From positions 558,001 to 622,000 of the forward strand of contig NZ_FOBX01000003.1 of assembly GCF_900109945.1 (NCBI RefSeq): a DNA stretch of 64,000 nt. Reading direction: 5' to 3'. A program made the translations under genes and the position numbers. The notes beneath the pieces are model-generated. The model was given only the letters and a program-made list of their open reading frames with translations. It ran no database searches and was not told the origin of the DNA. Of the stretch, positions 25,634 through 36,072 are shown piece after piece (the first letter of the stretch is position 1; each line of letters starts with the position of its first letter). The DNA is from Bradyrhizobium sp. OK095 (GTDB lineage Bacteria > Pseudomonadota > Alphaproteobacteria > Rhizobiales > Xanthobacteraceae).

Positions 25634-27490
25634 TCAATACCTGTCGTCGCCACGCCCGTCGTCGTCATCGTGGAAGTCGTGGTCGCCGCCTCGGCTGAAA
25701 CCGGGATCGACGCACGCAAAGTTGCCGGCGTCATTGGTCATGCCGCTGCCCTTGTAGGCCGCGATCTTCGGATAGACGCAGAGCGGCCGCGTGCCGCTGG
25801 CCGGGAAGTTCATCGCGACGCGCGGATCGAACAGTCCACCGGCCGGGTAGGGCGAGGTGGCGTTGGTGTTGGTCGCGACGATACGTTCCGGCGCGATGCC
25901 GTTCTCGACCCAGTCGGTGATGGCCTTGAGCTCGTTGCCGGCGAAGCTCGCGGTGGCCGCGCCGCCGCCGCAATGAGCCATGTTCGGCACCATGAACAAC
26001 CGCGCGAAATCGGCCGCGCGACCGCTCATGTGCCGGTCCATGTGGCGATACCAGCGGGCGATCGCAGCACCCGAGAAGATGCCGTCATTGACGGAGGAGG
26101 AGATGATCAGCTTGCCGCCGCGTGCCTTGAACGGCCGCAAATCGGTCGAGACCGCGGCCATGAAGTCCATGCTGCTTTCGGGATAGGCCTGGGTCTTGTT
26201 GAAGATTTTTGGCGCGTCGGTGTCGAAGTTGAATTTGAACACGAAAGCTTCCTGGCCGTTCGGCCCGTTGACGGGCGTGACCACGGGCGGGGTCTGGAAG
26301 ATCATCGGGATCGCGCCTGCGCCGAGCGTCAGGTTGATGGCGGTGTTGACACCAGGCACCGGCGCGGTGACGACGTTCCAGAGTTGCCAGCCCGCGCCGG
26401 GCGCGGTGGGCGGCGTCCAGATGCCGGCATCCCAGAACCAGTTCGAATAGAGCCGTTGTCCCCTTGAGTTGACCGGCCCGGCGTAGATCTTCTTCAACGC
26501 GTCGACTTGCTTGGCCGTGAGGCACGTGCCGCCATGCGGCGTGCTGCCATGCGAGCCGGAGCCGCAGGTGTAACTGGCGAGCGCCGGATACACCTTCTTC
26601 GCCGTGCAGGCGTGATAATTGTCGATGATGCCGTCGACGAGGCCATCGAGCGCGTCGCAGGCGCTCAGGATCGCGGCCGAGGCCACCTGGAGATCTTGCA
26701 CGGGAAACGTGTCGGGAATGAACGGTTGTCCGTTGACGTCGTTGCTGGTTGCGAGCGTGCCGAGCACCTGCTCGTTCCAGGCTTCCGCGAGGCCCGCCTG
26801 CGGCAGGTTGAAGCCGGGATTTTGCGAGATCACGCCGTCGAACAGCCAGGGGAAGCGCTGCGACGCCACCATCGCGTCGCGGCCGCCGTTCGAGCAACCC
26901 ATGATGTAGGAGTAGACGGTGTCGAGGCCGTAGAAATAGGAGATGATCTCTTTCGAGATCGTCGCGGTCTTCTCGATACCGTTGTAGCCGTAGTCCCGGC
27001 GCGCCTGCGCGTCGATGGCGAAATGCGCGGATCCTCCCGCATTGGCATCGTCGTCTTGATGTCCGCCGACGACATTGCCGGGGTTGTCCTCGTGGCCGCC
27101 ATCATCGGCGGCGACAGCCCAGCCCTGGCCGAGCTCGACACCGGCCGCACCTTGCGGATCGGCATTGAGGCTGCCGTCGGTGCCGCCGCCGCCCATCATC
27201 TCGAAACGGCCATGCCAGGTATTGGGCAGGTTGAGCGCAAAGCCGATCCCGTAGGTGAAATGATCGGGGTCCTGCGTCGAGACGCGCTTGTTGATGATGC
27301 CGATGACGTTGCAATAACCGGACTTCTGGGTCGCGCTCAGGATCTGCGTGTTCGCCAAAGTGAGGCCGGTGAGGGCGGTACAGGAGGCGCGCGGCGCGAC
27401 GCCGCCCGGCGGCAATTCATGTGCGGCGGCATGGGTGCCGAGAGACGCCCATGTGGCGATGATCGTCGAGGCGAGGAAAAGTCGTTTCAT
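25634..27490 (-). CDS. Tannase/feruloyl esterase-family exported protein
   Basis: This 618-residue secreted serine esterase has a signal peptide (MKRLFLASTIIATWASLGTHA). The nucleophile motif MGCSNGGRDAM lies near residue 193, followed by FDGVISQNPGFNLP, a tannase-family signature. The C-terminal NDGIFSG and MAHCGGG segments carry the expected Asp and His. Paired cysteines fit an exported enzyme. The family cleaves ester bonds of tannins, feruloylated plant polymers or mono-aryl esters, fitting a soil or plant-associated bacterium. ATG 27490 was chosen because GGGAGGG is 8 bp upstream. The C-terminus ends in a short Asp/His-rich tail (DHDFHDDDDGRGDD), possibly metal-binding. Confidence 0.9.
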   Translation of the reverse strand: MKRLFLASTIIATWASLGTHAAAHELPPGGVAPRASCTALTGLTLANTQILSATQKSGYCNVIGIINKRVSTQDPDHFTYGIGFALNLPNTWHGRFEMMGGGGTDGSLNADPQGAAGVELGQGWAVAADDGGHEDNPGNVVGGHQDDDANAGGSAHFAIDAQARRDYGYNGIEKTATISKEIISYFYGLDTVYSYIMGCSNGGRDAMVASQRFPWLFDGVISQNPGFNLPQAGLAEAWNEQVLGTLATSNDVNGQPFIPDTFPVQDLQVASAAILSACDALDGLVDGIIDNYHACTAKKVYPALASYTCGSGSHGSTPHGGTCLTAKQVDALKKIYAGPVNSRGQRLYSNWFWDAGIWTPPTAPGAGWQLWNVVTAPVPGVNTAINLTLGAGAIPMIFQTPPVVTPVNGPNGQEAFVFKFNFDTDAPKIFNKTQAYPESSMDFMAAVSTDLRPFKARGGKLIISSSVNDGIFSGAAIARWYRHMDRHMSGRAADFARLFMVPNMAHCGGGAATASFAGNELKAITDWVENGIAPERIVATNTNATSPYPAGGLFDPRVAMNFPASGTRPLCVYPKIAAYKGSGMTNDAGNFACVDPGFSRGGDHDFHDDDDGRGDDRY

Positions 27491-27921
27491 GTCATGCCCT
27501 CCCAGTTTCATCATGGATGATTGAACGAAAGCGCCCGGCGCGTTGCCAACGGGCGAAACGTCGCGTGGTCAGAAATTTTTGCAGAAATGCTGTTGGGAGA
27601 CAGGCGCGCCGCGCCGGCGATGAGCCGCGCCGCCGTTTCAGTGGCGCGCAAAACCATTCCGCCGCGATGCGCTGTGGCATGCGGATCGGTGCCCAGCCCT
27701 GATGACGGCACGGACGTTCGCTCCCCTTGAAACCGCTCGTGGTACGGCAGGTTTTCACGATCCTTAGGCGAGCGATGTTGCCGTGTCAACATGACGCATC
27801 GCGCGATATTGCCATGCAACCTGTCGTAGAAGCTGTAGGCGCGGAACGAAGTTCCGCCCGGCTTCTCCATTCCACCGCGTTGCGTTAGGTTAGCTGTCCG
27901 AATCCTTGAGGACACGGCCGG
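27491..27921. other. Intergenic region without a recognised gene
   Basis: This divergent gap between the tannase-family and MarR-type genes holds no convincing frame. One small dyad, GCGGAAC/GTTCCGC at 27841-27857, lies 64 bp before the MarR start and could be its operator. Nothing else was identified. Confidence 0.5.
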
Positions 27922-28509
27922 ATGCGCCTGCACCGGCTCTGCGAAAGATGTGCGTCGATGCGGCCAGCCAAGGCACGGGTGAAGAAACGGATCGCGGGAC
28001 CGCAGCGGGCGGCACGCGCGACAAAGCCGTCGCGCTCGCCGCCGCGCACCGCGTCCGGCGCGACATCGCCCCGGGCGAAACCGCTTGCCCTGGGCGACCT
28101 CTCGCAATTGCTGGGCTATTCCATCCGTCGGGCGCAGCTCTGGATCTTTAGGGAGTTCAGCCGGCAATTGGCGGCCTTCGAGATCAGTCCTGCCCAATTT
28201 TCCGTGCTCTGCGTCATCGACTCAAATCCCGGCGTCAATCAGCTTGCCGTGGCGCAGCTGTTGTCGATCGAACGTGCCGGGCTCGGCAGGCTGGTGGATC
28301 ATCTGGAAGGTCGTGGCCTGGTGCGACGCAGCGCGTCGGCGATCAACCGCCGCTATTACGTGCTCTATCTGACCGTGGCCGGAACGGCGCTGCTGGGCCG
28401 GCTGAGGCCGGCGGCCGCCGAAAGCGACAAGGCGCTGGCCGCCAAGATCGGACCGCGCGCCTACAAGGAATTGCAGCGGGCGCTGTCGACCTTTGTCGGG
28501 GACGCCTGA
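27922..28509 (+). CDS. MarR-family transcriptional regulator
   Basis: This 195-residue protein has a basic, low-complexity N-terminal extension of about 55 residues followed by a MarR winged helix. The DNA-recognition region is QLAVAQLLSIERAGLGRLVDHLEGRGLV (residues 109-135), with the wing at RRSASAINRRYYVLYLT. ATG 27922 follows GAGGA; an internal ATG at 27958 is also possible. The TRAP binding-protein gene begins 142 bp downstream on the same strand and is a likely target. MarR proteins usually respond to small aromatic or keto acids. Confidence 0.87.
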   Translation: MRLHRLCERCASMRPAKARVKKRIAGPQRAARATKPSRSPPRTASGATSPRAKPLALGDLSQLLGYSIRRAQLWIFREFSRQLAAFEISPAQFSVLCVIDSNPGVNQLAVAQLLSIERAGLGRLVDHLEGRGLVRRSASAINRRYYVLYLTVAGTALLGRLRPAAAESDKALAAKIGPRAYKELQRALSTFVGDA

Positions 28510-28651: not shown

Positions 28652-29743
28652 ATGGAACGCCGTACATTCCTCAAGGGCGGCGCGGTTGCCGGCGCGACGA
28701 CGCTGGTTGCTGCACCTGCGATCGCGCAGAGCGCGCCAGAGATCAAATGGCGCCTGACCTCGAGCTTCCCGAAGTCGCTCGACACCATCTACGGCACCGC
28801 GCAGACGTTTGCGAAATACGTGGCCGAGGCCACCGACAACAAATTCCAGATCCAGACCTTTGCGGCCGGCGAGATCGTTCCGGGCCTTCAGGCGCTGGAC
28901 GCCGTCAGCACCGCCAGCGTCGAGATGGCGCAGACGCCGCTCTATTTCTATATCGGCAAGGAGCCGGCGCTGGCCTACGCCACCGGCGCGCCGTTCGGCA
29001 TGAACCATCGCCACCAGGAATCCTGGTGGCATTTCGGCGGTGGTGCCGATCTCGCCAACGAGGCGCTCAAGCCGTTCAAGGCGCACGCCATCCTCTGCGG
29101 CAATTCCGGCACCCAGATGGGCGGTTGGTTCCGCAAGGAGATCAAGACGGTCGACGATCTCAAGGGCCTCAAATTCCGCATCGCCGGCATGGGCGGCCAT
29201 GTGCTGGCCAAGCTCGGCGTGGTACCGCAGCAGATCGCGGGCGGCGACATCTATCCGGCGCTGGAGAAGGGCACGATCGACGCGGTCGAATTCGTCGGTC
29301 CCTATGACGACGAGAAGCTCGGCTTCCAGAAGGTCGCAAAATACTATTACTTCCCCGGCTGGTGGGAAGGCGGCGCCATGCTGCACATGATCGTCAACGA
29401 CGAGAAATGGGCGAGCCTGCCGAAGCAGTATCAGGCGATCGTCAACCAGGCTGCCTCCGCGGCAGGCGCCTGGATGCTCGAAAAGTACGACAGCGTGAAT
29501 CCGGCAGCCCTGAAGCGGCTGCTGGCAAATGGCGCGGAGCTGAAGGCGTTCCCGCAGCCGGTGATGGAAGCCTGCTACACCGCGACCCAGGAACATCTGA
29601 ACGAGCTCGCCGCCAAGAGCGATTTGTTCAAGCGCACCAAGGACAGCCACGACGCCTATATGAAGGAGCTGCTGTTCTACACGCAGATCGCGGAGAATTT
29701 TTACGACAACTATCTGCTCAGCAAGATGCGCAACAAGAGCTGA
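28652..29743 (+). CDS. TRAP transporter solute-binding protein (DctP/TakP-type), orphan
   Basis: This 363-residue periplasmic binding protein has a Tat-like signal (MERRTFLKGGAVAGATTLV, cut near AIAQSA). TRAP features are WRLTSSFPKSLDTIYG at the start, the GLKFRIAGMGGHVLAKLG segment near residue 175 with the conserved Arg, and GTIDAVEFVGPYDD near 208. The layout resembles the TakP group that binds alpha-keto acids. No DctQ or DctM membrane subunits lie nearby, so it must use a transporter encoded elsewhere or act as a sensor partner. A MarR gene precedes it on the same strand. Confidence 0.9.
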   Translation: MERRTFLKGGAVAGATTLVAAPAIAQSAPEIKWRLTSSFPKSLDTIYGTAQTFAKYVAEATDNKFQIQTFAAGEIVPGLQALDAVSTASVEMAQTPLYFYIGKEPALAYATGAPFGMNHRHQESWWHFGGGADLANEALKPFKAHAILCGNSGTQMGGWFRKEIKTVDDLKGLKFRIAGMGGHVLAKLGVVPQQIAGGDIYPALEKGTIDAVEFVGPYDDEKLGFQKVAKYYYFPGWWEGGAMLHMIVNDEKWASLPKQYQAIVNQAASAAGAWMLEKYDSVNPAALKRLLANGAELKAFPQPVMEACYTATQEHLNELAAKSDLFKRTKDSHDAYMKELLFYTQIAENFYDNYLLSKMRNKS

Positions 29744-29754
29744 TTGCGAGAAGA

Positions 29755-29778
29755 GGGCGCGGTGCTTACGCCGCGCCC
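29755..29778. terminator. Bidirectional hairpin between convergent genes
   Basis: Perfect 8-bp GC arms GGGCGCGG and CCGCGCCC surround an 8-bp loop. The hairpin covers the stop codon of the minus-strand ATPase gene and begins 12 bp after the TRAP gene stop. No clear T-run follows. Confidence 0.5.
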
Positions 29779-30539
29779 AGTCCCAGCTTCGCGTAAATCC
29801 GCCTTGCATAGGAACCGAACGCATCCGTCGTCTTCAGCGGAAGATCGCGCGGGAAGGGCAGCTCGATCGGGAAGTAGTCGGCCATCTTCGCCGGACCCGC
29901 GGTCAGCACGGCGCAGTGCGAGGACAGGAACACCGCTTCCTGGATCGAATGGGTGACGAAGATGATGGTCTTGCCGCTCTCGCGCCAGATCCGCAGCATC
30001 TCCAGATTCATCTGCTCGCGCGTCAGCGCGTCCAGCGCGCCGAACGGCTCGTCCATCAGGATCAGCTTTGGATCGTGGATGAAGGCGCGCGCGATGGCGG
30101 TCCGCTGCTGCATGCCGCCGGAGAGCTGATGCGGATATTTCTGTTCATGGCCTGAAAGGCCAACGAGGTTGAGCAGGTCGCGCGCCCGTTCGCGCGCGGC
30201 CTTGATCGGCAAGCCCACGATCTCGGCCGGCAGCAGCACGTTGTCCAGGATGGTGCGCCATTTCAGCAAAAGCGCCTGCTGGAACACCATGCCGATGTCG
30301 CGGGTCGGATCGAACGGGCTGTTGGCGTTGCCGATCGTCACCGTGCCGCCGTCGGCGCCGTGCAGGCCGGCCAGGATCTTCATCACTGTGGTCTTGCCGC
30401 AGCCGGAGGGGCCGACCAGCGACACCAGCTCACCTTCCTGCACGTCCATCGTGACATCGGATACGGCGAGGAACTCTGCGCCGCCGCTGCGATAGACCTT
30501 TCGGACGCCTTGCAGGCTGATGAACGGAGCGGAGCTCAT
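29766..30539 (-). CDS. ABC transporter ATP-binding protein (nitrate/sulfonate/pyrimidine-type importer)
   Basis: This 257-residue cytoplasmic ATPase belongs to the importer group that includes TauB, SsuB and ThiZ. It has Walker A GPSGCGKTT near residue 43, the Q-loop at GMVFQQALLL, signature LSGGMQQRTA near 140, Walker B LILMDEPFGALD near 160 and the switch His in FVTHS. The ATG at 30539 overlaps the stop of the upstream lyase-like gene as ATGA; an ATG at 30548 is also in frame. It is the last gene of a five-gene minus-strand operon that begins with the permease. Confidence 0.92.
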   Translation of the reverse strand: MSSAPFISLQGVRKVYRSGGAEFLAVSDVTMDVQEGELVSLVGPSGCGKTTVMKILAGLHGADGGTVTIGNANSPFDPTRDIGMVFQQALLLKWRTILDNVLLPAEIVGLPIKAARERARDLLNLVGLSGHEQKYPHQLSGGMQQRTAIARAFIHDPKLILMDEPFGALDALTREQMNLEMLRIWRESGKTIIFVTHSIQEAVFLSSHCAVLTAGPAKMADYFPIELPFPRDLPLKTTDAFGSYARRIYAKLGLGAA

Positions 30540-31591
30540 GCCAGCCATTTATCCAGATTGGCGGCGACGAAGGAATCATCGCTGAGGTCGGCATGCTCGC
30601 GCGTGACGCGGTCGATCTCGTCCTTCTGGCCGGGGCTGAGGCCCTCGTTTGGATCGAGGCACCACAAACCTTTCATCAGGCCCTGGCGCCGCAGCACTTC
30701 GTGGCAGCCGGCGATGCAGCCGTGAAAATTATTGGCGACATCGAAGAAGGCGCTGTTGCAGTCGGTGACGCGGGCATCGAGCGCGAGCAGATCGGCCGGC
30801 ACGCTGTCCTTGTGCCGCGCCGCCTTGCAACGCTCGAACTGTTTGATCGCGCTCGCGGTCCAGACTGACCAGTGGCCGAGCAGGCCGCCCTTGAAATAGG
30901 TGCGCGTGGTGATGCCGTTGTCGCGCAGGTCGAACGGCAGCATCAAATCGAGCAGGATGTGATCGTCATTGCCGGTGTAGAGCGCGACGCGGTCGAGCGC
31001 GCCGGCCGCCGCGACGCCGCGCAAAACATCAAGAGTCCTGTAGCGGTTGAACGGCGCGATCTTGATCGCGATGACATTGTCGATCGAGGCAAAACGCTGC
31101 CAGAACCGGCAGGACAGGATGACGCCGCCGACGGCCGGCTGAAGATAGAAGCCAACCAGCGGGATTTCGGCGGCGACCGCCGTGCAATGCGCAATGATCT
31201 CGTCCTCGGAGGCGCTCTTCATCGCGGCGAGGCTGAGGAGACCTGCGTGATAGCCGATGTCGCGCGCGGTGCGGGCTTCCGCGACAGCCTGGTTGGTTGG
31301 ACCTGCGAGGCCGGCGACCATCGCCAGCGGACGCTTGGTCCAGCTGGCAGCAGTCTCGGCGGCAAGCTCGAGCACGGGCCGATACAGGCCGACATCGCGG
31401 ATCGCGAACTGCGTGGTGTGCACGCCGACGGCAAGGCCACCTGAGCCTGCGTCGATGTAATAGCGCGTCAGGGCGCGCTGATGCCTTTTGTCGAGCTCGC
31501 GCTCGGCGGTGAGCGCCAGCGGATGCGCCGGCATCACGGTGCCCTCGGCGATCAGCTTGCGGATGTCGGCGTTGATCTGGCTGTGGTGCAT
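30536..31591 (-). CDS. Dihydrodipicolinate synthase-family protein (DapA/NanA-like aldolase)
   Basis: This 351-residue protein is a TIM-barrel of the Schiff-base aldolase/lyase family. The conserved GSGGLAVGVHTTQF near residue 48-62 matches the substrate-loop region, and the lysine in NVIAIKIAPFNRY near 175 is the likely Schiff-base residue. It is longer than DapA itself (about 290) and clearly not the lysine-pathway enzyme; relatives cleave or dehydrate sugar acids and keto acids. It is translationally coupled to the ABC ATPase gene and lies 6 bp behind the GNAT gene. This suggests it acts on the imported compound. Confidence 0.88.
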   Translation of the reverse strand: MHHSQINADIRKLIAEGTVMPAHPLALTAERELDKRHQRALTRYYIDAGSGGLAVGVHTTQFAIRDVGLYRPVLELAAETAASWTKRPLAMVAGLAGPTNQAVAEARTARDIGYHAGLLSLAAMKSASEDEIIAHCTAVAAEIPLVGFYLQPAVGGVILSCRFWQRFASIDNVIAIKIAPFNRYRTLDVLRGVAAAGALDRVALYTGNDDHILLDLMLPFDLRDNGITTRTYFKGGLLGHWSVWTASAIKQFERCKAARHKDSVPADLLALDARVTDCNSAFFDVANNFHGCIAGCHEVLRRQGLMKGLWCLDPNEGLSPGQKDEIDRVTREHADLSDDSFVAANLDKWLA

Positions 31592-31597
31592 GATGTC

Positions 31598-32419
31598 CTA
31601 TCCGAATTCAGGGCCGGCGACGGCGAATGGCATTTCCTCAACCATGGCGGTGGCGGGGCCGAACCGCATACGCTGAAACGGCCTCTCGATGGTCCAGCCA
31701 GACCCGGTCAATCCTTCCAGGAACGCGGCTTGCGAGGCGACGGCATCGATCAGAAGCGGGCCGGTCTCGGATCGTGTGATCGCATGAACCAAGGCCAACG
31801 CTGTTGCGGCATGATCGGCAAACAGCGGGCCGATATGGCGGGCGGTCCGGCCGTCGCGAACCAGCGCGATTGCGCCATGCGCGGAGACGATGCGCGAGCC
31901 CGAGCGCTGCGCGAAGGCGGAGAGGAGGGCGGTCCGGTCGAAACCGGTGGCGCGCCGGTCCCGCGCGCTCAGCGCATCGATGGTCGCGGATGAAGACGGC
32001 GGGGCTTCGGCTCGGCCGAGATTCGCCAGCTTCAGCCGGCGCAATTGCAGCGTCGGCGTGAAGCCGAGCGGCCCGTAGACGGCGGCGCCGTCGGGTGTCG
32101 CATCGAGCCAGCTGGTCAGGCCGTTCTTGCGCGCGGTCTCCAGGCAGGCATCGACGAGGCGCGTGGCAAGGCCGAGGCGGCGATGGGTGCCTGATACCAG
32201 CACCATGCTGATCCAGGCGTTGTTGCCGGAATAGGGCAGCAGCGCGGCCGTGGCGACCAGCCGGGTCCCGTCACGAATGCCGAACACGACGCCGTCGTGT
32301 AGGAAGATACGCCAGTCCTCCTCGGTCTGGTTCCAGTGCGCCTCCGTCGACAGCACCAGCCCGGCGATCGCATCATCGACGCCGAGCTTGAGGATCGGCG
32401 GACCGTCAGTAGCGGCCAT
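31598..32419 (-). CDS. GNAT-family acetyltransferase with C-terminal extension
   Basis: This 273-residue protein has an N-terminal GNAT domain with the acetyl-CoA loop HRRLGLATRL near residue 80 and a following segment AVYGPLGFTPTLQLRRL. A C-terminal region of about 130 residues resembles the second domain of YitH-like acetyltransferases. The acceptor is unknown. Its start overlaps the stop of the epimerase-like gene by 14 bp, so it is part of the TetR-controlled operon and may modify the imported substrate or an intermediate. Confidence 0.87.
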   Translation of the reverse strand: MAATDGPPILKLGVDDAIAGLVLSTEAHWNQTEEDWRIFLHDGVVFGIRDGTRLVATAALLPYSGNNAWISMVLVSGTHRRLGLATRLVDACLETARKNGLTSWLDATPDGAAVYGPLGFTPTLQLRRLKLANLGRAEAPPSSSATIDALSARDRRATGFDRTALLSAFAQRSGSRIVSAHGAIALVRDGRTARHIGPLFADHAATALALVHAITRSETGPLLIDAVASQAAFLEGLTGSGWTIERPFQRMRFGPATAMVEEMPFAVAGPEFG

Positions 32420-33443
32420 CGCGCACCTCGTATTTGGTGGGCTTGCCGAGGCTCGGCATGGCGCGTGAGACCCAGTCGGCCGTCCAGGCGATCAGCTGCT
32501 CGGTGTCGACCACCGGCAGGCCGAACAGCTCGACCGCTTTCGACGTGTCGGTGAGCCACGCGGTCGGCTCTTCCTTGCCTGTCAGGACCGGCGCGCGACC
32601 GAAGCGGGCACCAAATCTTGCGGCGAGATCGCGCACCGCAAGAATCTCGTGGCCGCTGACATTGATCGGCGTGGTCGGGGCGGTGCAATGCGCGAGGCAC
32701 CGCAGCGCCTGCGCGGAGGCATCGCCCTGCCAGATGAAATTGACATGGCCAAGGCTGACGTCGATCGGCGTGCCCGTCAGCACTTTTGTGGCGATGTCGT
32801 GCAGCACGCCGTAGCGCATGTCGATCGCGTAGTTGAGGCGGAACAGCCGTCCCGGCGTCGAGAACCTGCGCGAAAAATATTCGAACATGCGCTCGCGGCC
32901 GACGCAGGACTGGGCGTATTCGCCGGGCGGGTTCGGCGCCATCTCCTCGGTCGCGCCTTTGCCGCCGACGGGCACGAACGGATAGATGCAGCCGGTCGAG
33001 AACGCCACGATCCGCGACGACGGAAAGGCCTGCGCGACCAGCGCCGGCACATGCGCGTTCATCGCCCAGGTCAGCGACAAATCGCCCTCGGCGCCGAATT
33101 TGCGGCCGGCCATGAAGATGATGTTGGGTGCCTTGGGGAGGGCCTGAATTGCGCTCTCGTCCATCAGGTCGCAATTGATGGTCTCGACGCCGCGGGCGTG
33201 CAGCCACTCCTTCACACCGGCTTCGCTGAAGCGCGCCACGCCGATGACGCGGCGATCCGGCACGGCTGCCTTCGCGAGCCCCGCCAGCGTCGGGCCCATC
33301 TTGCCAGCGACGCCGAGGATCATGATGTCGCCCTCGACCTTTTTGAGATCGTCGATCAGCGCCTGGGAGGGCCGGCACAGGAGATCGTCGAGGGCTGCGA
33401 TATCGGGAATGGTCTTCGGCAGGTTGTCGCGGGTGAGAAGCAT
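32406..33443 (-). CDS. NAD-dependent epimerase/dehydratase-family protein
   Basis: This 345-residue protein has an extended-SDR Rossmann fold with the dinucleotide loop GVAGKMGPTLAG near residue 42. The segment SRIVAFSTGCIYPFVP near 140 carries the catalytic Ser region. The usual YxxxK is not clear: YAQSCVGRE stands where it is expected, so the active site may differ. ATG 33443 was chosen; a longer frame upstream would overlap the permease gene. It lies 10 bp behind the permease and overlaps the GNAT gene. A sugar or polyol-type substrate is plausible but not shown. Confidence 0.85.
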   Translation of the reverse strand: MLLTRDNLPKTIPDIAALDDLLCRPSQALIDDLKKVEGDIMILGVAGKMGPTLAGLAKAAVPDRRVIGVARFSEAGVKEWLHARGVETINCDLMDESAIQALPKAPNIIFMAGRKFGAEGDLSLTWAMNAHVPALVAQAFPSSRIVAFSTGCIYPFVPVGGKGATEEMAPNPPGEYAQSCVGRERMFEYFSRRFSTPGRLFRLNYAIDMRYGVLHDIATKVLTGTPIDVSLGHVNFIWQGDASAQALRCLAHCTAPTTPINVSGHEILAVRDLAARFGARFGRAPVLTGKEEPTAWLTDTSKAVELFGLPVVDTEQLIAWTADWVSRAMPSLGKPTKYEVRDGRY

Positions 33444-33453
33444 GGGGCGGTCC

Positions 33454-34224
33454 TTAGCTTTGCCTGGCATCGCCGACCACGAACATGCGTTCGAGGACGA
33501 GCACCAGGCCGTAGAGGGCGACGCCAAGCAGCGTCAGCAGCACGACGGCCATCACCATCGCGGGCGTGTCGAGCGAGGACTGCACCTGGATCATGAGGTA
33601 GCCGAGCCCGCGCTCGGAGGCGATGAACTCGCCGACGATGGCGCCGGCCACCGCGAGGATGGCGCCGACCTTCATGCCGGAGAAGATGAAAGGCAGCGAA
33701 CCCGGCAGCTGGATCTTGCGGAACAGCGTCCAGCGCGAGCCGCGCAGCGATTTGACGAGATCGAGGAGATCGGGCTCGACCTCGCGCAGGCCCCGCGCGG
33801 TGGTGAGCAGGATCGGGAAGAAGCAGATGCTGAAGGCGATCAGGATGTTCGGCACGATGCCGTAGGAGAACCAGACGATCAGCAGCGGGCCGAGCGCGAC
33901 CTTCGGGATCATGTTCAGCGTCACGAACAGCGGCAGCAGCGCCACGCTCAGCAGCGGCGCCCAGCTGAAGATCACCGCGAGCGCGACACCGACGAAGGCG
34001 CCGAGCGCGAAGCCGCCGAGGATCTCGATCGCCGTCACCAGCGTATTGGCGCCCCAGGCATAGTTCGCGGTTCCCAGCGTCTGAACCGTCGCCAGCGGGG
34101 AGGGCAGGATGAATTTCGGCACGTGGAAGGCGTCGACCAGGACCTGCCAGAGCACGAGCACGGCGAGGTGCACGATCAGGATGATCGCAAAGCTGCGTGC
34201 GGTGTGTGCCCCGTCGGCTGCCAC
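33454..34224 (-). CDS. ABC transporter permease (nitrate/sulfonate/pyrimidine-type importer)
   Basis: This 256-residue inner-membrane protein of the BPD_transp_1 family has about six membrane segments (first at residues 11-33). The cytoplasmic coupling loop, around DLVKSLRGSRWTLFRKIQLPGSLPFI (near 160-185), carries the EAA-like motif that meets the ATPase. The start is GTG at 34224, preceded by AGGGAG. It heads a five-gene operon, and a TetR operator candidate lies 67 bp upstream, over the likely -35 region. Its binding protein is encoded divergently at 35056. Confidence 0.9.
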   Translation of the reverse strand: MAADGAHTARSFAIILIVHLAVLVLWQVLVDAFHVPKFILPSPLATVQTLGTANYAWGANTLVTAIEILGGFALGAFVGVALAVIFSWAPLLSVALLPLFVTLNMIPKVALGPLLIVWFSYGIVPNILIAFSICFFPILLTTARGLREVEPDLLDLVKSLRGSRWTLFRKIQLPGSLPFIFSGMKVGAILAVAGAIVGEFIASERGLGYLMIQVQSSLDTPAMVMAVVLLTLLGVALYGLVLVLERMFVVGDARQS

Positions 34225-34290
34225 CTTCTGCTCCCTGTTGTCCGCGGCCTCGCTGCCACAACGGCAGCCTAACCGTCCTTGACCTAAGTT

Positions 34291-34306
34291 TCAACTAGTT
34301 GGTTGA
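34291..34306. promoter_or_regulatory. Candidate TetR operator in front of the ABC permease operon
   Basis: TCAACTAGTTGGTTGA forms the dyad TCAAC-N6-GTTGA. It matches 13 of 16 positions of the site at 34957-34972 (other strand). It overlaps a TTGAAA hexamer on the minus strand, 17 bp from TAGGCT, and touches the stop codon of the TetR gene. Confidence 0.7.
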
Positions 34307-34954
34307 TTAGGGCCGGAGCGAATGCAGCACGAGATCGACGACATGGCGTCGCCGGGCGCGGCGCTGGGCGCGGCTCGACAGGTCCTTGCTGAAGATCGCC
34401 GACAGCGTCGGCGTGTTGGAGAAGAAGAAATAGCTTAGGCCCGCAATGGAGATATAGAGCTGGACGGGGTCGATCCCCTTGCGGAAGATGCCGCTGCGCA
34501 CGCCTTCATGGAGGATGTGGGAGACGCTTTTGACCAACGGCGAATGCATCGCTTCCAGCCGGGTCGAGCCGCGGACATGGCGGGCGCCGCCGCGGTTCTC
34601 GTCGTTCAAAAGCACGATGAAATCGGGGTTGGCCGCGAGGTGATCGAATGAGGCCTCGATCAGCTTCCGGATCGCCTTGTCGGGCGGCAGGCCCTCGAGA
34701 TTGAGCTTGCGCTCCTGCTCGCGGATGTCCTCATAGACCCATTCGAGCACGGCGAGGTACAGCGCGTCCTTGTCGCCAAAGTAGTGATAGACCAGCTGCT
34801 TGTTGACGGCCGCGCGCTCGGCGATCTCGTCGACGCGGGCGCCCGCAAAGCCGTGCTTGGCGAACTCCAGCCGCGCCGCGGTGAGCAGCTTCTTGCGGGT
34901 GGCGACGGGATCGCGCCGCTGCGGCACCGTGTCGCCTGAACGTTTTGCGGGCAT
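34307..34954 (-). CDS. TetR-family regulator with RutR/YcdC-like C-terminal domain
   Basis: This 215-residue regulator has an N-terminal helix-turn-helix (TAARLEFAKHGFAGARVDEI and AVNKQLVYHYFGDKDALYLA). The C-terminal part has the pattern of the RutR/YcdC group: NPDFIVLLNDENRGGARHV and IDPVQLYISIAGLSYFF. E. coli RutR senses uracil, but this protein's ligand is unknown. I prefer ATG 34954; a TTG at 34975 would put the operator inside the coding region. It lies between the permease operon and the divergent binding-protein gene, with one 16-bp operator candidate on each side. Confidence 0.9.
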   Translation of the reverse strand: MPAKRSGDTVPQRRDPVATRKKLLTAARLEFAKHGFAGARVDEIAERAAVNKQLVYHYFGDKDALYLAVLEWVYEDIREQERKLNLEGLPPDKAIRKLIEASFDHLAANPDFIVLLNDENRGGARHVRGSTRLEAMHSPLVKSVSHILHEGVRSGIFRKGIDPVQLYISIAGLSYFFFSNTPTLSAIFSKDLSSRAQRRARRRHVVDLVLHSLRP

Positions 34955-34956
34955 TT

Positions 34957-34972
34957 CCAACCAAACAGTTGA
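34957..34972. promoter_or_regulatory. Candidate TetR operator in front of the binding-protein gene
   Basis: On the minus strand this reads TCAACTGTTTGGTTGG, close to the site at 34291. It overlaps TTGACA at 34969-34974, the best -35 hexamer for the binding-protein gene at 35056, and lies directly upstream of the TetR start, so it could also autoregulate. Confidence 0.7.
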
Positions 34973-35055
34973 CAAGTGGAGGGCGGACTTGTTGCATTGG
35001 TATCCTCACATGGGGAGAGCGACAAGCCGGGTCGCGGGCAATGAGGAGAGATGCG

Positions 35056-36072
35056 ATGAAGCATTTGCAGGCGGTGGGCTCGGTTCTCGGCTTGGCCTTG
35101 ATGCTCGGTTTACCGGCGGTGCCGGCGGGCGCGGGTGAGGCGGTGAACCTGATCCTGAACTGGACGCCGACGGCCGACCATTCGCCGTACTACTACGCCA
35201 AGGCGCAGGGCTGGTACGAGAAATCAGGCATCGACCTCACCATCGAGACCGGCAAGGGCTCCGGCGTCTCCGCCGCCAAGGTGGGCTCTGGCGGCTCGCC
35301 GTTCGGCGTCGCCGATCTCGCCACCATGCTGGTGGCCAAGAGCAAGGGCGCCGACACGGTGGCGGTGATGAGCGTCTACGCCAACACCGGACAGACGTTT
35401 TACTGGCTGAAGAGCTACGGTGTGAACGGCGTCAAGGATTTTGCCGGCCACAAGATCGGCAATCCGCCGGGCGATGCCTCGCGCGTGATGTGGCCGGCCT
35501 TCGCCAAGGCCGCAGGGCTCGCGCCCGATGCGGTCGGCTTCGTCAATATCGGGCCGACCGCGAAGATCGCGGCGCTGAAAAGCCACACCGTCGACATCAT
35601 CAGCGACTTCTACAACGAGCACGATCTGAAGGTGATCGAGTTCGGGCCCGACCTCGGCTACGTCAACTGGAAGGATATCGGGCTCAACCCCTACGGCAAC
35701 TCGCTGATCGTCAACGGCGCTTATCTGCAGAAGAACCCGAAGCTGGTCGAGGAGTTCGTGCGCATCTCGCAAAAAGCCTTTGCGGCTTGCGTCGCCGACG
35801 TCACGCCGTGCCTGAAGGCGCTGCTCGACCAGGCCTCCGGTCTCGACAAGGAGAACCAGGAGCGTCAGTGGGAGCGCATCAAGTTCCTGATGACGGATGA
35901 GTTCACGACCACCAAGGGTCTCGGCTGGATCGACGGCGAGCGGATGAAGAAGGACTACGAGCTGGTCCAGGCCTATCTCGGCATGGAGAAGCCGTTCGAC
36001 GTCTCGACGGCATTCACGACCAAGATGCTGGATCCCGCCGTCAAGATGGATGCGAGCAAGGTGAAGAAGTAG
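35056..36072 (+). CDS. ABC transporter substrate-binding protein (NMT1/ThiY-like)
   Basis: This 338-residue periplasmic binding protein has a signal peptide (MKHLQAVGSVLGLALMLG, cut near GAGEA). The mature start LILNWTPTADHSPYYYAKAQ and the loop GKGSGVSAAKVGSGGS are typical of NMT1/THI5-like binding proteins for pyrimidine precursors and similar compounds. Two cysteines (CVADVTPC) may form a disulfide. ATG 35056 follows GAGGAGA. It is divergent from the TetR gene, and its permease and ATPase are in the neighbouring minus-strand operon. The ligand is unknown. Confidence 0.9.
   Translation: MKHLQAVGSVLGLALMLGLPAVPAGAGEAVNLILNWTPTADHSPYYYAKAQGWYEKSGIDLTIETGKGSGVSAAKVGSGGSPFGVADLATMLVAKSKGADTVAVMSVYANTGQTFYWLKSYGVNGVKDFAGHKIGNPPGDASRVMWPAFAKAAGLAPDAVGFVNIGPTAKIAALKSHTVDIISDFYNEHDLKVIEFGPDLGYVNWKDIGLNPYGNSLIVNGAYLQKNPKLVEEFVRISQKAFAACVADVTPCLKALLDQASGLDKENQERQWERIKFLMTDEFTTTKGLGWIDGERMKKDYELVQAYLGMEKPFDVSTAFTTKMLDPAVKMDASKVKK

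Follow-up and report, generated by a model that had tools for sequence, protein, structure and literature searches.

What might a bacterium take up and break down with an ATP-binding cassette (ABC) importer whose genes are joined to those of a lyase, an oxidoreductase and an acetyltransferase? The question is raised by seven genes of Bradyrhizobium sp. OK095, at positions 29,766 to 36,072 of a 64,000-nucleotide stretch of contig NZ_FOBX01000003.1 (the window; the source genome is 7.85 Mb in 51 contigs). With a probability of about 0.55, we read the locus as an operon, repressed by TetR, for the uptake and catabolism of one small compound. A first-pass annotation of the window had listed the same seven genes, with permease, epimerase-like enzyme, acetyltransferase, lyase and ATPase in one unit, a divergent binding-protein gene of the NMT1 type and a TetR regulator between, and this layout was borne out by Pfam searches:

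29766..30548, reverse strand: ABC transporter ATPase of the nitrate/taurine/NMT1 type (ABC_tran PF00005, 110.8 bits)
30536..31591, reverse strand: lyase of the dihydrodipicolinate synthase/N-acetylneuraminate lyase (DHDPS/NAL) superfamily, uncharacterised subfamily (PF00701, 33.7 bits; fold model and motif counts)
31598..32419, reverse strand: GNAT acetyltransferase (Pfam Acetyltransf_1 and Acetyltransf_18)
32406..33443, reverse strand: extended short-chain dehydrogenase/reductase (SDR) without the YxxxK lysine, which reads YAQSC (PF01370 Epimerase, 33.1 bits)
33454..34224, reverse strand: ABC transporter permease, GTG start (BPD_transp_1 PF00528, 93.9 bits)
34291..34306, no strand assigned: predicted TetR operator 1, TCAACTAGTTGGTTGA, between the tetR stop and the permease start
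34307..34954 or 34975, reverse strand: TetR repressor of the TetR_C_29 type (PF17938, 136.1 bits; TetR_N PF00440, 54.7 bits)
34957..34972, no strand assigned: predicted TetR operator 2, reverse strand TCAACTGTTTGGTTGG, 5' of the tetR ATG at 34954
about 35041..36072, forward strand: NMT1-type periplasmic binding protein, divergent (NMT1 PF09084, 135.1 bits; cut-off 20.5)

The previously noted gaps and overlaps also match, subject to the choice of start codons. The permease and SDR genes are separated by 10 bp, the SDR and GNAT genes overlap by 14 bp, the GNAT and lyase genes are 6 bp apart, and the lyase and ATPase genes overlap by 4 bp from an inner ATG at 30539 or by 13 bp from the longer ATPase start. 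The tetR gene lies on the operon strand, 82 bp upstream of the permease gene, and probably starts at the ATG at 34954, with a TTG at 34975 as a possible start; predicted operator 2 is ~70 bp upstream of the binding-protein gene and would fall inside tetR if the TTG were used.

The strongest evidence that the enzymes belong together is their co-occurrence in 240 genomes of the source's class (Alphaproteobacteria), evenly drawn and including the source genome. At presence limits that we chose (E ≤ 1e-60 for the lyase, 1e-40 for the SDR and 1e-12 for the GNAT), lyase and SDR occur in exactly the same 19 genomes, from 15 families, and neither occurs in the other 221 (Fisher 1.5e-28, a value that ignores kinship). 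The GNAT is present in 18 of these 19 genomes (not in G074) and, as a weak match, in 1 of the 221 others; the window-type binding protein is found in 14 of the 19 and in 1 of the 221. Lyase and SDR genes lie within 10 kb of each other in 14 of the 19 genomes. In G241 the distance is 165 kb; in G103, G146 and G290 the two are on separate contigs, which contig breaks may explain; in G087 it exceeds 3 Mb, and there the SDR lies with the GNAT and the lyase with the binding protein. Because the enzymes share presence and absence, and because the pair is kept even where its members are far apart, we conclude that lyase, SDR and GNAT probably serve one pathway.

Gene order leads to a similar view. 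Genome contigs scanned for the lyase yielded at least 591 relatives, and we compared 92 loci (the best 80 of these at least 591, plus 12 from 43 plasmid records), 24 from the Bradyrhizobium group and 68 from elsewhere; since the loci are those of the nearest lyase relatives, the counts are biased toward near kin. The order binding protein (divergent)-TetR-permease-SDR-GNAT-lyase-ATPase was found in 23 of the 24 Bradyrhizobium-group loci and in 9 of the 68 others, these 9 including Tistrella, Sulfitobacter, Microvirga, Ferrovibrio, Maritimibacter, Pseudochrobactrum and Xenophilus. The set that the first-pass annotation had treated as one unit is thus kept together in related genomes and, given also the matched presence and absence of the enzymes in the 240 genomes, its grouping is not due to chance. 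Orthologs with no less than 83% identity occur in 28 of 35 other genomes sampled from the genus, and 1 of 24 genomes sampled from the same taxonomic order has a relative, at 61% identity. Outside the Bradyrhizobium group, an SDR gene lies near the lyase gene in 61 of 68 loci (53 of the 58 that extend 3 kb or more to each side). The pair also occurs in Actinomycetota, Bacillota and Planctomycetota. On plasmids of Rhodococcus, Streptomyces, Glaciihabitans, Prescottella, Nonomuraea, Mesobacillus, Paenibacillus and Aquisphaera, the lyase and its SDR neighbour are accompanied by different transporters or by none recognised. All seven gene types, with tetR at the opposite end and a lyase 62% identical to that of the window, are found in Enemella (Actinomycetota), suggesting either that the cluster has crossed from one phylum to another or that the assembly is mixed. 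The earlier remark that no known operon gives the substrate still holds: we found no characterised operon of the same order, and the titles and abstract openings among the open-access matches listed describe no such operon.

The palindrome CAACCAnnTGGTTG, present in both promoter gaps (34291-34306 and 34957-34972), is probably the TetR operator. A search of the window with the pattern, at no more than one mismatch, returned four matches, where 0.83 are expected. Two are the exact sites, a third is one of these read in reverse, and the fourth lies at an unrelated place. Across 55 TetR-bearing loci, the 81,849 bp near module genes hold 95 palindrome sites and the 958,583 bp elsewhere hold 42, overlapping tandem sites being counted separately; the enrichment is partly circular, because sites of this kind supplied the consensus. 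At least one palindrome lies near in 47 of the 55 loci, and in 24 of the 32 outside the Bradyrhizobium group. Palindromes are found as well at five loci with a different importer (L074, L079, L085, L091 and L092). These observations support, as probable, the previously proposed TetR control of an uptake-plus-enzyme unit. In the source genome as a whole, the pattern gave 75 matches on both strands at no more than one mismatch versus 9 for a reversed control pattern, and three exact matches besides the two module sites. Of these three, the one at C25:1024068 lies within an open reading frame (ORF) and the one at C34:58154 inside a long ORF; the palindrome TCAACCGAATGGTTGA at C5:41854-41869, ahead of an ORF that has no Pfam match, is a possible extra target or a chance occurrence. 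Next to the two sister TetR_C_29 genes of the same genome we found no adjacent site with 9 or more of 12 matching positions. A third TetR_C_29 regulator lies at C13:165099 (L152:8076-8723), beside genes that weak similarity or inspection by eye marks as like those of the major facilitator superfamily (MFS) and of esterases.

None of the seven proteins reaches a curated NCBIfam equivalog cut-off among the matches shown (limited to the top 25 of 180 for the ATPase). The importer was considered as a taurine or aliphatic sulfonate system and rejected as such: the binding protein scores 51.9 and 26.8 bits against equivalog or subfamily cut-offs of 163.5 and 304.25, the permease 78.7 against 347, and the ATPase, whose best NCBIfam model is the taurine ATPase, 205.9 against 357. 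Among solved structures, the binding protein is nearest to 4nmy, an unnamed binding protein (E 9e-17), and to 3ix1, which binds a thiamin-pyrimidine precursor (E 8e-16). Elsewhere the lyase stands beside other NMT1-like ABC systems (permeases about 37-45% identical), tripartite tricarboxylate transporters (TTT), CUT1 sugar ABC transporters or MFS transporters; by gene content, the importer varies while the enzyme set stays. On a 54-row lyase tree, transporter type requires 20 changes, compared with a mean of 28.9 in shuffles, none of 200 of which was as low; transporter type therefore also groups by descent. The tree was built quickly and leaves 20 of its 51 inner branches open; fewer changes are forced if only branches with good support are used, and the 9 rows without an assigned transporter were counted as a state of their own.

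The lyase passes PF00701 (33.7 bits, gathering cut-off 22.1), and its model (predicted local distance difference test, pLDDT, 93.3) matches the DHDPS fold with Z 33.3 and a root-mean-square deviation (rmsd) of 2.3 over 295 aligned residues. K177 aligns with the Schiff-base lysine and is kept in all 54 members aligned, and Y149 aligns with the catalytic tyrosine and is kept in 52. In keto-acid members of the superfamily (DapA, NanA, KdgD), GxxGE is the carboxylate-binding loop. Here the loop reads VHTTQF, with H58, T60, Q61 and F62 in 54 of 54 members and T59 variable, while all 10 distinct paralogs aligned from the source genome keep the G-E pair (11 rows, L148c and L002 being the same gene; four further Pfam matches were left out). 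The earlier remark that keto acids are what this lyase family works on is accordingly a poor guide to the enzyme, and an ordinary keto-acid lyase was rejected as its default identity. The lyase has no NCBIfam match at E ≤ 1e-5, and sequence searches of solved structures returned only distant matches.

The SDR, described before as epimerase-like, does carry the Epimerase label (PF01370, 33.1 bits, cut-off 20.9), which here describes the fold only. Its Rossmann motif GxxGxxG (G46, G49 and G52; residue numbers count two residues before the ATG) is present in 49 of 49 members, and its model (pLDDT 93.9) is nearest to the fold of TerB (Z 30.7, rmsd 2.6, 291 aligned residues, 21% identity). The tyrosine of YxxxK is likewise invariant (49 of 49); the lysine is absent from all 49, being replaced by cysteine in 47 and valine in 2. 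An invariant K117, after the fourth strand, might take its place.

On this basis we propose how the locus would work. TetR would bind the CAACCAnnTGGTTG palindromes in both gaps and repress tetR, the binding-protein gene and the permease-SDR-GNAT-lyase-ATPase unit, until a pathway ligand released it. The NMT1-type importer would take the compound in, and the SDR would oxidise a hydroxyl (or reduce a ketone) with NAD(P). K177 of the lyase would then form a Schiff base with a ketone, followed by C-C cleavage or water elimination, and the GNAT would acetylate an amine of the substrate or of the product. SDR oxidation beside a Schiff-base lyase suggests that the SDR makes the carbonyl that the lyase uses; oxidation first, then cleavage or dehydration of the product, is thus the most likely sequence, an order and direction that we infer. 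We put somewhat below even the chance that this is a previously undescribed catabolic route, built on an obligate pair, an SDR that does without the YxxxK lysine and a DHDPS-superfamily enzyme with a new loop for substrate recognition, and on interchangeable importers.

Several observations weigh against this picture. As regards the operator, 2 of 100 shuffles of the window reach at least four pattern matches at one mismatch, 8 of the 55 TetR-bearing loci have no palindrome nearby, and a simple sigma-70 scan of the gaps gave no promoter. As regards the pair, no SDR was seen near the lyase in 7 of the 68 loci, 5 of which extend 3 kb or more to each side (the locus alone was considered). As regards the chemistry, the tyrosine at the catalytic position is absent from 2 of 54 lyase members, ordinary keto-acid chemistry is doubtful because the G-E pair of GxxGE is gone, and an SDR without the YxxxK lysine might not be a normal dehydrogenase. 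Finally, an enolase-like enzyme that is found beside the lyase in other loci is missing from 6 of the 19 lyase-SDR genomes, and its only match in the source genome lies in another cluster.

The last point bears on the earlier suggestion of a complete uptake-and-first-steps pathway, which is weakened by the genes that relatives add. Near the lyase in the 68 loci outside the Bradyrhizobium group are the enolase-like enzyme (~480 residues, 28 loci), a xylose-isomerase-like TIM-barrel epimerase (25 loci), an amidase cluster (11 loci, named from one scanned member) and, in a few, Gfo/Idh and 2-hydroxyacid dehydrogenase genes; serine dehydratase or ammonia-lyase genes occur in L031, L039 and L105. 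The enolase-like enzyme, which by eye shows KxK and acidic motifs, is found in 18 of the 240 sampled genomes (13 of the 19 with lyase and SDR, 5 of the 221 others). Given this distribution and its location in another cluster, the window operon may not hold the whole pathway. The enolase-superfamily-like family comprises proteins of some 465-492 residues that Pfam either misses or scores under its cut-offs (L031:4764-6239, L099:6625-8079 and L147:5324-6721). A MetE-C-like (Meth_synt_2) gene, named from the L077 scan, is also present in L077, L086, L095 and L110. Going by these neighbours in other genomes, the substrate is possibly sugar-acid-like with nitrogen (an amide or amine). A polyhydroxylated acid that might bear such a group would be compatible with them, and a carbon-nitrogen hydrolase gene in 3 of the 68 loci (named from the one scanned, L102) leaves a pyrimidine-like compound possible.

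Such neighbours raise the question of whether the locus is a non-phosphorylative sugar-acid pathway of known type, with dehydrogenase, dehydratase and 2-keto-3-deoxy-acid lyase, in which the lyase is an ordinary keto-acid aldolase or dehydratase. The DHDPS/NAL fold with its Schiff-base lysine and the enolase-like, Gfo/Idh and 2-hydroxyacid dehydrogenase neighbours elsewhere would fit; the VHTTQF loop, invariant but for T59 where the paralogs keep G-E, the lack of NCBIfam matches to the lyase and of close sequence matches to it among solved structures, and the absence of an enolase or sugar-acid dehydratase from the window operon argue otherwise. As for the uronate (Udh-KdgD) pathway, the KdgD structure 4ur7 appears only among fold matches of the lyase, and uronate dehydrogenase is not named among the SDR matches listed. 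We regard the sugar-acid pathway of known type as unlikely, albeit the best of the alternatives.

Distinctly less probable is uptake and breakdown of a pyrimidine or related heterocycle, with an importer and a regulator that descend from pyrimidine systems and three enzymes acting on the ring or on the chain attached to it. The binding protein has the thiamin-pyrimidine-precursor protein among its nearest solved relatives, and the palindrome shares ACCAnnTGGT with what we take to be the E. coli RutR box. The carbon-nitrogen hydrolase family found at three loci includes beta-ureidopropionases. The best NCBIfam model of the regulator is RutR (TIGR03613), yet at 57.6 bits against a cut-off of 368; the earlier label RutR-like thus stands as distant kinship, and orthology is rejected. 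Moreover, the lyase-SDR pair also stands beside CUT1 sugar, TTT and MFS transporters, and no dihydropyrimidinase or dihydropyrimidine dehydrogenase was found among the neighbour proteins scanned, which cover part of the clusters. Equally improbable is that SDR and lyase modify or detoxify a compound, with the GNAT as detoxifier and the importer for salvage, since the presence of a GNAT and the nearness of the SDR fold to the biosynthetic oxidoreductase TerB are set against neighbours elsewhere that look catabolic (amidase, epimerase, dehydrogenases) and an importer and enzymes that share one predicted operator.

We therefore retain the TetR-repressed uptake-and-catabolism operon as the preferred reading. 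A strict pair and near-strict trio in ~8% of the sampled genomes of the class point to an environmental nutrient whose breakdown is apparently undescribed. The two altered active sites yield sharp biochemical predictions, the predicted operator offers a direct reporter for an inducer search, and knowing the function would put right the names of several hundred genes (at least 591 matches) of the sort annotated as 'dihydrodipicolinate synthase family'. Beyond the operon, the window holds a TRAP (DctP) binding-protein gene at 28652-29743 (forward strand), convergent with the operon, a tannase/feruloyl esterase family protein at 25634-27514 (reverse strand), and nearby a MarR regulator gene at 27922-28509 (forward strand).

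Within the source genome, the closest comparison is with a sister cluster:

C46:761989-770404 (L147:1987-10405): TetR, permease, NMT1 binding protein, ATPase, enolase-like enzyme, Gfo/Idh (labelled by eye from its likeness to an L077 protein), DUF993 and TIM-barrel epimerase

Its TetR is 48%, its binding protein 28%, its permease 35% and its ATPase 48% identical to those of the window, and it has DUF993 and Gfo/Idh where the window has lyase and SDR. From these likenesses, it looks like a parallel pathway with a related regulator and importer, although its tetR has no adjacent site with 9 or more of 12 operator matches. A comparison of DUF993 with the lyase gave an hhalign probability of 8.2% and an E-value of 0.0042, and we found no open-access paper on it.

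Among characterised systems, RutR, the E. coli pyrimidine regulator, belongs to the same TetR family as the window regulator, which is far below the equivalog cut-off and has no rut genes in its operon; the RutR site is described as a palindrome of approximately 16 bp (PMC10891134). TerB (6nd7/6d2v), the nearest solved extended SDR, shares with the window SDR its fold, the Rossmann GxxGxxG and the active-site serine and tyrosine; it keeps the YxxxK lysine in the alignment, where the window SDR has cysteine or valine plus the invariant K117. With the DHDPS/NAL superfamily (DapA, NanA, HOGA, KdgD, L-KDA dehydratase), the lyase shares the TIM barrel, the Schiff-base lysine and, in 52 of 54 members, the tyrosine. 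It is 14-22% identical to the solved members listed and differs from them in the VHTTQF loop and in conserved YTGNDD and GGLLG motifs. Judged from sequence, what is new relative to these systems is the strict pairing of a lyase and an SDR, both with altered active sites, under a proposed operator.

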